A stretch of 61,633 nucleotides of DNA from Rhodopseudomonas palustris. Its GTDB lineage: Bacteria > Pseudomonadota > Alphaproteobacteria > Rhizobiales > Xanthobacteraceae. Position 1 is the stretch's first letter. Each line of letters opens with the position of its first letter. The DNA is taken from positions 1 to 61,633 of the forward strand of contig JACRJB010000061.1 of the NCBI GenBank assembly GCA_016215605.1, in the 5' to 3' direction. Made by a program: the position numbers and the translations under genes. The notes beneath the pieces are model-generated. The model was given only the letters and a program-made list of their open reading frames with translations, was not told where the DNA came from and did no database searches. Shown one piece after another: positions 36,366-61,326 of the stretch.

Positions 36366-36517
36366 CGTCATTCCGGGATGCGCCCCTCTTGGGCGCAGAC
36401 CCGGAATCTATACCCCCTGACCCTCCGGTTGAGCACCGCGTGGCAGAGCTCTTTCTCTCTCGGCGAGGCCAGGGGATATGGATTCCGGGCTCGCGCTGCG
36501 CGCGCCCCGGAATGACG
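36366..36517. repeat. Paired palindromic repeat, family A (pimF-pimA gap)
   Basis: Two hairpins, each of ATTCCGGG...CCCGGAAT form, in inverted order around a spacer that starts CTATACCCCCTGA and ends CAGGGGATATGG. The ends are CGTCATTCCGG and CCGGAATGACG. Confidence 0.85.
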
Positions 36518-39424: not shown

Positions 39425-39435
39425 GCCACGCGGGA

Positions 39436-39546
39436 GTCATTCCGGGGCGCAAGCGCAAGCTCGCGAACCCGGAATCCCGATGTTGGTGCGGGACGGCAGA
39501 ACAGCTCGAGATTCCGGGTTCGCGCTTCGCGCGCCCCGGAATGACG
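39436..39546. repeat. Paired palindromic repeat, family A (pimB-pimC gap)
   Basis: A 111-bp copy starting GTCATTCCGGGGCGC and ending GCCCCGGAATGACG. The spacer between the two hairpins is only about 35 bases. Confidence 0.85.
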
Positions 39547-40778: not shown

Positions 40779-40790
40779 GGCCCCTGCGCT

Positions 40791-40894
40791 GTCATTCCGG
40801 GGCGCTCACGAAGTGAGCGAGCCCGGAATCCATAACCCCTGCCGGGAGTATGGATTCCGGGCCTGCGCCCAACAGGGCGCATCCCGGAATGACG
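40791..40894. repeat. Paired palindromic repeat, family A (pimC-pimD gap)
   Basis: A 104-bp copy with ends GTCATTCCGGGGCGC and CATCCCGGAATGACG, and a minimal spacer CATAACCCCTGCCGGGAGTA. Confidence 0.85.
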
Positions 40895-42241: not shown

Positions 42242-42248
42242 GCCACGA

Positions 42249-42396
42249 GTCATTCCGGGGAGCTCACGAAAGTGAGCGAACCCGGAATCTCTAAGTGTTG
42301 TCATTCCGGGGCGCGCGAAGCGCGAGCCCGGAATCTCTTCGTAGTAACTTCTGGATTCCGGGTCTGCGCGCCGGTGGCGCGCATCCCGGAATGACG
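42249..42396. repeat. Family A repeats: one half copy plus one paired copy
   Basis: A single hairpin (42249-42290, ATTCCGGG...CCCGGAAT) is immediately followed by a paired copy at 42300-42396 ending CATCCCGGAATGACG. Confidence 0.8.
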
Positions 42397-43344: not shown

Positions 43345-43367
43345 TAACAACCCTCACCCTCTCGTCC

Positions 43368-43520
43368 GTCATTCCGGGGCGCTCACGAAGTGAGCGAACC
43401 CGGAATCCATACGCCGCAGCATCGGCTGTTGGGCACGATGCCCGATGGTTTGGGTTCCCCTCGCGAGTCTAGGGGCTATAGATTCCGGGCTCGCGCCAAG
43501 AGGCGCGCCCCGGAATGACG
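43368..43520. repeat. Paired palindromic repeat, family A
   Basis: A 153-bp copy, first hairpin GTCATTCCGGGGCGCTCACG, second ending GCGCCCCGGAATGACG. It starts the 485-base convergent gap between the dehydrogenase and nasA, which holds no gene. Confidence 0.85.
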
Positions 43521-43637: not shown

Positions 43638-43674
43638 GCGCCTGCACGAGTTGTTAGTCACCGCCCTCTCGGTT

Positions 43675-43777
43675 GTCATTCCGGGGCGATCACGAAGTGA
43701 GCGAACCCGGAATCTCTCTTGGCAACAATGTCGGGATTCCGGGTCCGCGCGCTTGCAGCGCGCATCCCGGAATGACG
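43675..43777. repeat. Paired palindromic repeat, family A
   Basis: A 103-bp copy bounded by GTCATTCCGGGGCG and GCATCCCGGAATGACG, 53 bases before the nasA stop. Confidence 0.85.
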
Positions 43778-59555: not shown

Positions 59556-59964
59556 CGTCATTCCGGGGCGCGAGCGAAGCGAGCGAGCCCGGAATCCATA
59601 ACCCCTGGCCTCAATGCGACAGGCCGGGATAGAGATCGGTCCAGTCCGGATTGTCCTCCTCGATCAAACGAATCTTCCAGTCCCGCCGCCATTTCTTCAG
59701 CTCTTTCTCGCGCGTGATCGCCGTCAGTGCATCGTCGTAGATTTCGAACCACACCAGCTTGTCGACGCCGTATCGCGACGTGAAGCTGTCGACTGCCTTG
59801 GTTCGATGCTCATAGACGCGGCGGACGATGTCGTTGGTCACGACGAGATACAGCGTGCCATGCTTGCCGCTGGCCATCAGATAGACGTAGTAAGCCATCG
59901 CCGATACAGGGAATATGGATTCCGGGCTCGCGCGCAGCTTTGCTGCACGCGCCCCGGAATGACG
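59556..59964. mobile_element. Family A palindromic repeat pair flanking a GIY-YIG gene
   Basis: The left half (CGTCATTCCGGGGCGCGAGC to GGAATCCATAACCCCTG, 59556-59606) and the right half (CAGGGAATATGGATTCCGGG to CCGGAATGACG, about 59907-59964) are the same halves that sit close together in other copies. Here a complete nuclease gene fills the spacer, an arrangement like REP sequences around a RAYT transposase gene. Confidence 0.7.
59611..59898 (-). CDS. Small single-domain GIY-YIG nuclease
   Basis: A 95-residue protein consisting only of a GIY-YIG (UvrC N-terminal/URI-like) domain. AYYVYLMASGKHGTLYLVVT holds the two Tyr-containing strands (YVY and LYL in place of GIY and YIG), then NDIVRRVYEHR with the catalytic Arg, YEIYDDALTAITREKELKKW with the metal-binding Glu, and a C-terminal NPDWTDLYP. 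The start is the ATG at 59898. A longer frame would translate repeat sequence. Its place within the repeat suggests that the nuclease acts on that repeat (inference). Confidence 0.85.
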   Translation of the reverse strand: MAYYVYLMASGKHGTLYLVVTNDIVRRVYEHRTKAVDSFTSRYGVDKLVWFEIYDDALTAITREKELKKWRRDWKIRLIEEDNPDWTDLYPGLSH

Positions 59965-59994: not shown

Positions 59995-60236
59995 ATCGGA
60001 TCGAAGCGCGTATGCGGGACCCCGGTTTGTTGGACCGCCTGAACCGGGGCCCCGGATCTGCGCAGCGGCATTGCATGCCGCAGCGCTTCCGGGGCACCAA
60101 GCATCGCGAGCGTTTGTTGCTCACCGCGTTCGTGAGCCATGACATCTGCGCCTGCCACGGCCGATCATTCCGCGCTTGAGCCGCACCGGCTGAATCGCCA
60201 CAATCGACGCATCGTCTTCAATTCCATGGCGCAGCC
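59995..60236. other. Structured non-coding gap before the glutathione S-transferase
   Basis: No gene. An AT-rich TATATCGTATAC stretch ends at about 59988. It is followed by CCCCGGTT/AACCGGGG (60020-60027 with 60042-60049) and a nested hairpin at 60050-60094: outer CCCCGGA/TCCGGGG, inner GCGCAGCGGCAT pairing with ATGCCGCAGCGC apart from one mismatch. Confidence 0.55.
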
Positions 60237-60979: not shown

Positions 60980-61127
60980 CGTCATTCCGGGGCGCTCACG
61001 CAGTGAGCGAACCCGGAATCTATACCCCCTGGACTCGCGGTGACGTCCGACGCGGCACCGCTGCGAGCAAGCGTTGGCGTCGGTGGTTATGGATTCCGGG
61101 CTCGCGCTGCGCGCGCCCGGAATGACG
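60980..61127. repeat. Paired palindromic repeat, family A
   Basis: A 148-bp copy. The spacer begins TATACCCCCTGGACTCGCGG and ends GTCGGTGGTTATGGATTCCG. The spacer is related to that of the next copy, so these two are recent duplicates. Confidence 0.85.
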
Positions 61128-61175: not shown

Positions 61176-61326
61176 CGTCATTCCGGGATGCGCTGCGCAG
61201 CAGCGCAGGCCCGGAATCCATAGTCCCTGGACTCGCGATGAGGCATCGCGCTCGCCAACCGAACTCATTCATGAACGTCAGTGGTTATGGATTCCGGGCT
61301 CGCGCTACGCGCGCCCCGGAATGACG
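61176..61326. repeat. Paired palindromic repeat, family A
   Basis: A 151-bp copy that shares spacer features CCCTGGACTCGCG and GTCAGTGGTTATGGATTCCG with the preceding copy. Confidence 0.85.

Follow-up and report, generated by a model that had tools for sequence, protein, structure and literature searches.

GIY-YIG nuclease genes bounded by CGTC-type REP hairpins in Rhodopseudomonas palustris and other bacteria, and the match between gene clade and REP type

The window analysed here, 61,633 nt in length, is one contig (JACRJB010000061.1) of a 5.79-Mb Rhodopseudomonas palustris genome assembled in 78 contigs (GCA_016215605.1; the host genome). It carries a unit of the form REP – GIY-YIG gene – REP, with repeat halves at 59556 and 59954 of the window sequence (Table 1) and with genes for glycerol kinase and for a glutathione S-transferase on its two sides. 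The two bounding hairpins (CGTCATTCCGGGG...CCCGGAATCCAT) have their CGTC tags turned outward. An earlier note, drawn up from the letters alone, had these halves flanking a complete 95-residue GIY-YIG gene and little else; this was accurate, 13 bp and 18 bp lying between the REPs and the gene. The conserved start is the methionine at 59898 (MAYYVY), and an ATG further upstream gives a reading of 127 residues. Folded as single-stranded DNA, the REP at 59556..59597 reached -11.8 kcal/mol (z -1.94, 8 of 200 shuffles being equally good) and the REP at 59917..59964 reached -21.4 kcal/mol (z -5.50). Immediately to the right of the element, at 60040-60100, the window holds an unlike GC-rich palindromic repeat (GGGGCCCCGGATCTGCGCAGCGGCATTGCATGCCGC...), and a similar sequence was seen by eye near locus L004 of the host genome.

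Table 1. Features of the gene unit and of the short REP clusters in the window
Feature	Position	Strand	Remarks
Stop-side REP hairpin	59556..59597	+	CGTC tag outward, 8-bp stem ATTCCGGG/CCCGGAAT, inner stem within the loop, CCA tail
Stop-side end segment ATAACCCCTGGCC	59598..59610		13 bp; a similar end occurs in minimal dispersed dimers of the host genome
GIY-YIG nuclease gene	59611..59898	-	95 codons plus stop; Pfam, conservation, predicted fold
Start-side end segment, minus strand ...CCATATTCCCTG...	59899..59916		18 bp; second, unlike end, common to minimal dimers
Start-side REP hairpin	59917..59964	-	CGTC tag outward
Short dispersed dimer, same REP	36366..36517		Spacer 72 nt
Short dimer	39435..39546		Spacer 33 nt
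Minimal dimer	40790..40894		Spacer 22 nt, consisting of two end segments (CCATAACCCCTG / CCGGGAGTATGG)
Short REP cluster, CT tails	42248..42396
Short dimer	43367..43520		Spacer 73 nt
Short dimer	43674..43777		Spacer 20 nt, left half CT-tailed
Short dimer	60980..61127		Spacer 71 nt
Short dimer	61176..61326		Spacer 71 nt

The repeat CGTCATTCCGG, allowing at most one mismatch, has 23 occurrences in the window, where 2.46 would be expected; 0 of 100 shuffles reached this count, which agrees with its earlier description as frequent. Its hairpin form (ATTCCGG REPs) occurs 359 times in the host genome. CGTC REPs, one of two bacterial REP super-families, are described in the excerpted text of PMC3733652 as having a CGTC (or TGTC/CCTC) tag, a stem of 8-9 bp beginning with AT, a CCA tail and a usual loop of 4-5 bp. 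The repeat of the window has a CGTC tag at one end and, in the gene unit, the 8-bp stem ATTCCGGG, which starts with AT, and a CCA tail; CT-tailed REPs are also present in the window. Its loops depart from the usual 4-5 bp, the window ATTCCGG REPs having loops of ~15-26 nt with an inner stem; other loop lengths have been reported for Bradyrhizobium CGTC-1 (PMC3733652, excerpt).

Nine other tag-outward pairs, two of them with a common right half, were located in the window by script, with spacers of 18-73 nt, so that the spacing of 30-80 bases given in the earlier note was roughly right. In the 400 kb compared between the relatives G004 and G006, two-unit clusters were mostly tag-outward (10/13 and 15/18), and single units numbered 22/36 and 18/38 by the strict detector, a count in which partners may have been missed. 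The minimal dimer at 40790..40894 folds into one long branched hairpin (z -11.8). Sixteen minimal ATTCCGG dimers were recovered from the host genome with one pattern, and in 16/16 an AACC[AC]C end is joined to one unlike end (ACTCCC, ATTCCC, ATCCCC, AATCCC or ACTCAC); The window gene unit has AACCCC as one end and ATTCCC as the other. Such matching ends are compatible with autonomous and non-autonomous forms of one element, or with the gene having entered a dimer.

The window protein matched the Pfam GIY-YIG profile (PF01541) at E = 3e-11. Among 232 family proteins, window copy included, Y6, Y17, G19, R27, H31, E64 and N83 are almost invariant (R27 in 231/232, E64 in 231/232, Y17 in 229/231). 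By dN/dS (medians of orthologue groups 0.06-0.125) the family is under purifying selection, and its catalytic residues are conserved. The window copy keeps Y6, Y17, R27 and E64; residue 19, the YIG glycine, is G in 229/232 proteins, S in 2 and V in the window copy alone. Because this G19V change is unique among the 232 proteins, the window copy may not be catalytically active, and with its altered YIG motif it is probably a decaying member; the sister copies L002, L003, L005 and L006, elsewhere in the host genome, have kept the glycine. The protein has the features of the GIY-YIG superfamily, namely the GIY and YIG tyrosines, the central Arg, the C-terminal Glu and, in prediction, the GIY-YIG fold (pLDDT 94.7). 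The closest solved fold was UPF0213 (1zg2), followed by Slx1 (6seh, 7cq2, 4xm5), with 1ywl also among the nearest; Slx1 is a branched-DNA nuclease according to the title of structure 6seh. NCBIfam assigned no family to five GIY-YIG proteins submitted to it, and database records annotate the family merely as 'GIY-YIG nuclease family protein'.

The host genome holds 7 strong members of this nuclease family. At L002, L003, L005, L006 and L009 the detector found CGTC REPs with four different stems, and at L004 no REP was found by detector or by eye. A nuclease pseudogene, L008 (G000:C10:22371-22640), lies amid BIME-like repeats (GTCATTGCGAGGAGCGAAGCGACGAAGCAATCC) that have a shorter stem by eye, and it was not REP-flanked by detector. 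Across bacteria, 258 profile matches left 243 distinct genes once a score threshold of 60 had been applied and duplicates with identical cores discarded; the broken copy L008 does not figure among them. The family sample consisted of 100 of the ~150 rows listed, chosen mostly from the top down, with some skipped, together with the supplied loci, and under-samples weak relatives. REPs were called by a strict detector requiring a perfect 7-bp stem and a GTC tag. By this rule a CGTC REP lies no more than 250 bp away from 206 of the 243 genes (a density of 4.2 per kb, versus ~0.2 farther out), and many of the 37 misses show an imperfect REP by eye that was left uncounted; by a relaxed rule 222 of 243 genes have one, versus 55 of 439 shifted windows. 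Within the best 80 of 562 records, which are the named loci, 125 REPs lie in the 39.7 kb within 250 bp of the gene (3.15 per kb), and 250-bp bins from 250 to 5000 bp out hold 0.00-0.29 REPs per kb. Where present, the nearest REP of the 243 genes lies at a median distance of 21 nt on the start side and 13 nt on the stop side. The question raised by the earlier note, whether homologues are bounded by the repeats or mostly lie outside them, is thereby answered for the former (206/243 strict, 222/243 relaxed), and the particular repeat sequence that it named as boundary is too narrow, the REP sequence differing by gene clade.

Both sides of the gene carry a REP in 151 cases, with tags outward on both in 110 of these, and the 7-nt stem is equal on the two sides in 108/151, against a mean of 23 and a largest value of 38 in shuffles. 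In 96 of the 243 genes both REPs lie within 60 bp and have outward tags, and the median length of these units is 386 bp. Within the best 80 of 562 records, REP-flanked loci occur under titles of alpha-, beta-, gamma- and delta-proteobacteria, Nitrospirae and Cloacimonadota, and further under Omnitrophota, Planctomycetes, Chloroflexi and Patescibacteria; many of these records are MAG contigs, and the taxon of single records may be misassigned. Plasmid loci were also inspected, and 3 of 7 have clear REPs on both sides. Two loci on Rhizobium plasmids upstream of htpG, L325 (NZ_CP117266) and L326 (NZ_CP072149), have no REP on either side, whether by detector or by eye, and are candidates for nuclease copies that left the repeat. 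On a plasmid of Planktothrix agardhii (L330, NZ_LR882964) a family member lies between a type IIL restriction-modification gene and the DISARM gene drmA.

A common neighbourhood of this kind might come about by chance, or by a preference of unrelated elements for the same intergenic hot spots, and the gaps between dnaN and recF and after glpK do hold different elements by species. Within the same loci, however, a REP was present in 153 of 226 gaps adjoining the gene versus 15 of 189 other gaps of similar size, and of 24 matches to another small GIY-YIG clade in the same genomes (L007 type), 2 had a REP within ~310 bp. Together with the 55 of 439 shifted windows these counts led to rejection of a chance neighbourhood. 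The hot-spot reading likewise leaves the identity of stems on the two sides (108/151 versus a shuffled mean of 23) and the co-segregation of gene and REP described below without explanation. As far as sequence allows, this reading is refuted, and we regard it as exceedingly improbable.

The pairing of gene type and REP type was examined for 135 of 159 family genes, 19 having no REP label and 5 being lost to a length limit. For 97 of the 135 labelled genes the nearest relative from another genus has the same REP stem. In genomes with two or more genes the stems matched in 67 of 88 cases, compared with a mean of 29.8 and a largest value of 48 in within-genome shuffles. When pairs sharing flank proteins were left out, so that the relative came from another genus and another site, the figure was still 67/88 (mean 27.2, largest 46 in 2000 shuffles); vertical inheritance with fixed flanks was therefore rejected as the cause of the match. 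Stems were shared by 1-3% of pairs at 40-55% protein identity, 25% at 60-65% and 71-78% at 70-85%. On a FastTree gene tree, which rests on few columns and has many weak forks, the REP label requires 29 changes, compared with a minimum of 19 and with 85.6 for shuffled labels; the host genus requires 81. In these comparisons, gene clade matches REP stem independently of host genus and chromosomal site, and the likeness to REPs and RAYT transposases, with an unrelated nuclease, that the earlier note had drawn is borne out by co-segregation across genera and sites.

Among ATTCCGG REPs, the tail sequence likewise shows a tendency to go with gene clade. Genes nearer the window protein have CCA-type tails in 44/52 cases and none with CT, and the 79 tails of genes nearer L002 comprise 19 CCA, 18 CT and 12 CCC; genes closest to L002 carry CTCG and CCCG tails. 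Tails beginning with GAC are read from the tag side. One 3.0-Mb genome of the family (G098) has 12 nuclease matches among the matches listed, and the 7 labelled ones have several REP types.

Dispersal of the REPs was compared between genomes, which were labelled by their sampled genes only. The median number of ATTCCGG REPs was 147 in genomes with a sampled gene so flanked (n=19), 4 in genomes with other sampled types (n=50) and 0 in genomes without a gene (n=16); the corresponding medians for ATGGCCG REPs were 33 (own-type gene, n=31), 20 (other types, n=38) and 4.5 (no gene, n=16). In other bacteria, 14 or more ATTCCC REPs, a threshold chosen after the counts were known, were found in 12 of 16 genomes with an ATTCCC-flanked gene versus 1 of 7 with other flanks, and the remaining 4 of the 16 have 1-4 ATTCCC REPs. 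The matching REP is thus dispersed through most of the carrying genomes tested. Some genomes depart from this pattern: G008 has 129 ATTCCGG REPs and merely a distant nuclease match, and G036 and G111 have 37 and 41 ATTCCGG REPs and no nuclease among the matches listed. The transposase family of RAYT type (Y1, PF01797), the one such family searched for, has 0 matches in the host genome and at least 1 match in 6 of 16 genomes of the genus; a Y1 transposase of the host's own genome was rejected as the mover for want of a PF01797 match there.

Sites were then compared between relatives. At least 11 of the 16 genomes of the genus have the copy between ligA and recN (L002) at that position, which is how a resident gene would behave; in G004 it is split into two profile matches. 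The gap between dnaN and recF holds the whole gene unit in the host genome and in G009, and in G004, G006, G011 and G015 (4/16) it holds short REP dimers that retain remnants of the stop-side end of the gene, that of G004 retaining a start-side remnant too. At the same gap, loci L255, L256, L259 and L260 (G012, G002, G005 and G007) carry a different REP pair, of CCCTCCGCGAAAGCGGAGGG type with a GCCCGGTCAAGCCGGGC partner, and the gap seems to have been re-used by unlike REP families. An exact-pattern search for remnants of the dnaN-recF gene type found them once per genome, at dnaN-recF only, in 6 of 16 genomes, two of these with the whole gene; the deleted form of this one gene type showed no sign of having dispersed. 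After glpK, the site of the window element, short dimers are present in G006, G007 and G008, the one in G006 being accompanied by a further gene copy, and G004, G005 and G011 have no dimer within the compared stretch. At L285, L286, L287, L291 and L292 other small genes stand in the element's place after glpK, resembling by eye a DUF4160-type pair or an acetyltransferase, and the gap is highly variable between species because such genes replace the element. Sites occupied in one species by a gene unit and in another by a short dimer or by nothing, which the earlier note had suggested looking for, therefore exist. Its view of the other repeat copies as internally deleted relatives held in part: both ends are present in the 16/16 minimal dimers of the host genome, but gene remnants were found at dnaN-recF only (one gene type), and internal deletion of gene units as a general rule for the origin of dispersed dimers was rejected.

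Over 400 kb compared between G004 and G006, a counterpart with the same stem was found for 20 of 36 and 21 of 38 REP clusters, and 7 and 9 clusters had no counterpart, among them some chance hairpins within genes; the others were unplaceable or differed in stem. A single insertion in this stretch was clearly derived, a 131-bp insert with an ATGGCCG dimer at L362:11462-11606 (G006, ~4079462-4079606), flanked by a 9-bp direct repeat CTGAAATGA, with 32+19 bp beside the dimer inside the insert, and lacking in G004 and in the window (57156, minus strand). A search of G006 did not find the donor and revealed a dimer family instead. What is dispersed there as an ATGGCCG repeat is a complete dimer, spacer included: of 61 matches to one dimer, with palindromic places counted on both strands, 37 run from tag to tag, CGTC..GACG (query 34-36 to 123-126). 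Direct repeats of at least 4 were present at 1 of 39 short dimers and 2 of 96 gene units, as in shuffles, so that target duplication is not enriched and a transposon-like target-site duplication, the criterion for insertion sequences and MITEs, was rejected. Movement of the REPs must be rare, because most comparable sites are inherited. Movement of the repeats by the protein, which the earlier note suggested, stays at the level of a proposal: the differences between gene unit, short dimer and empty site are real, but most placeable sites are shared and target duplication is not enriched.

These site comparisons bear on two other accounts. A settled host enzyme might process REP hairpins or cruciforms for stability, replication or regulation of its own mRNA, co-evolving with the REPs and moving them no longer or never. 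Purifying selection, the orthologous location shared by 11 or more of the 16 genomes, the sharing of most placeable REP sites by two species and the closeness of the predicted fold to UPF0213 and Slx1 would all suit such an enzyme. It leaves unexplained the pairing of gene and REP across separate sites and genera, with REP sequences that are unlike, the 9-12 nuclease copies in three of 119 genomes (among the matches listed), and the differences between gene unit, short dimer and neither at dnaN-recF and glpK; we consider it rather unlikely. Alternatively, the gene may be a homing-type parasite that cuts the centre of dimers spread by something else and is copied in. Entry into the centre of the 22-nt spacer is conceivable, the gene unit and the minimal dimers having the same two ends, and GIY-YIG domains are frequent in homing enzymes (PMC1564403, excerpt). 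At dnaN-recF, however, the short forms retain stop-side gene remnants, and the gene form was therefore the earlier one there; the match of clade to stem (29 label changes versus 85.6 shuffled) is closer than a passive target needs, and the host genome has no match to PF01797, the one transposase family searched for. We know of no other enzyme for CGTC REPs, and we judge the homing account to be quite improbable.

The arrangement REP–GIY-YIG–REP is, in our favoured reading, a compact two-part element of ~390 bp whose nuclease is probably a dedicated, co-evolved enzyme of the CGTC REPs with a RAYT-like role. The GIY-YIG family is the best candidate for the enzyme of these REPs, and we infer that it cuts and moves them. 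The nuclease would recognise the folded REP by its stem sequence and foot and would nick at the foot by the unpaired CGTC tag, with the palindrome single-stranded or extruded; the cut unit, which could be the gene-bearing form or a same-type short dimer acted on in trans, would be released or copied and would re-enter elsewhere via host repair. GIY-YIG enzymes are hydrolases that are not known to carry out strand transfer, and integration would therefore need another partner. Mobilisation in cis and in trans with the help of host repair would be the most likely consequence. A wider proposal, which we put forward tentatively and hold to be possible rather than probable, is that these units form a nuclease-only class of mobile element across phyla, in which a minimal GIY-YIG hairpin nuclease with matched CGTC palindrome ends spreads itself and non-coding dimers by folded-REP cleavage followed by repair in the host, and makes no use of DDE, HUH, serine or tyrosine recombinase chemistry. 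If true, such a class would explain how CGTC REPs arose and are maintained, including the Neisseria dRS3 and Rickettsia RPE repeats.

The REPs described here share with published CGTC REPs the CGTC tag, the AT-starting 8-bp stem, the CCA tail, the tag-outward pairs and Bradyrhizobium and Rhodopseudomonas hosts (PMC3733652, excerpt), and differ from them in being paired with a GIY-YIG family and in a loop exceeding the usual 4-5 bp. The same excerpt places Neisseria dRS3 and Rickettsia RPE-6 within CGTC-1 and describes CGTC REPs as having no association with transposase genes and seemingly no dedicated transposase, proposing either the early extinction of such a transposase or the involvement of many enzymes. 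The co-segregating nuclease family offers a concrete, testable answer to this missing enzyme, and, if this is correct, a protein family annotated merely as GIY-YIG nuclease gains an expected role. A literature search, with preprints and most subscription journals outside its scope, returned no paper linking GIY-YIG proteins to REPs. The GIY-YIG survey PMC1564403 classifies the proteins and, in the portion consulted, reports no repeat association; a term search of PMC2267715 for nuclease, Bradyrhizobium, Caulobacter, transposase and CGTC had no hits.

Among GIY-YIG proteins, those of the UPF0213/Slx1 lineage provide the nearest solved folds and are likewise small stand-alone domains, and the small control clade of L007 type differs in being rarely REP-flanked (2/24). 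GIY-YIG homing endonucleases and the Penelope-type endonuclease likewise use GIY-YIG chemistry in mobile DNA, but the present unit has no intron, NUMOD or reverse transcriptase, and its 95-residue protein barely exceeds the domain. Neither the intron or intein location nor the NUMOD part of a homing enzyme was found, the gene being intergenic with PF01541 only; a free-standing homing enzyme is possible. MITEs resemble the dimers in being short, non-coding and bounded by inverted ends, and in having a coding relative whose ends are similar; they differ in that here target duplication is not enriched, the ends are themselves hairpins and the unit holds no DDE transposase. Another close parallel is the REPIN/RAYT (TnpA-REP) system of GTAG REPs, which also has tagged palindromes, inverted pairs, intergenic dispersal and an enzyme gene flanked by the matching palindrome (PMC3733652, excerpt, and general knowledge of the system). 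As in that system, and judged by sequence, an enzyme gene is flanked by a co-evolving REP type; unlike it, the flanked gene encodes a GIY-YIG nuclease and not a Y1 HUH transposase, the tag is CGTC and not GTAG, the host has no PF01797 match and the gene unit is of ~390 bp. If the proposed role is true, the arrangement of a REP with its enzyme arose at least two times, with unrelated enzymes.
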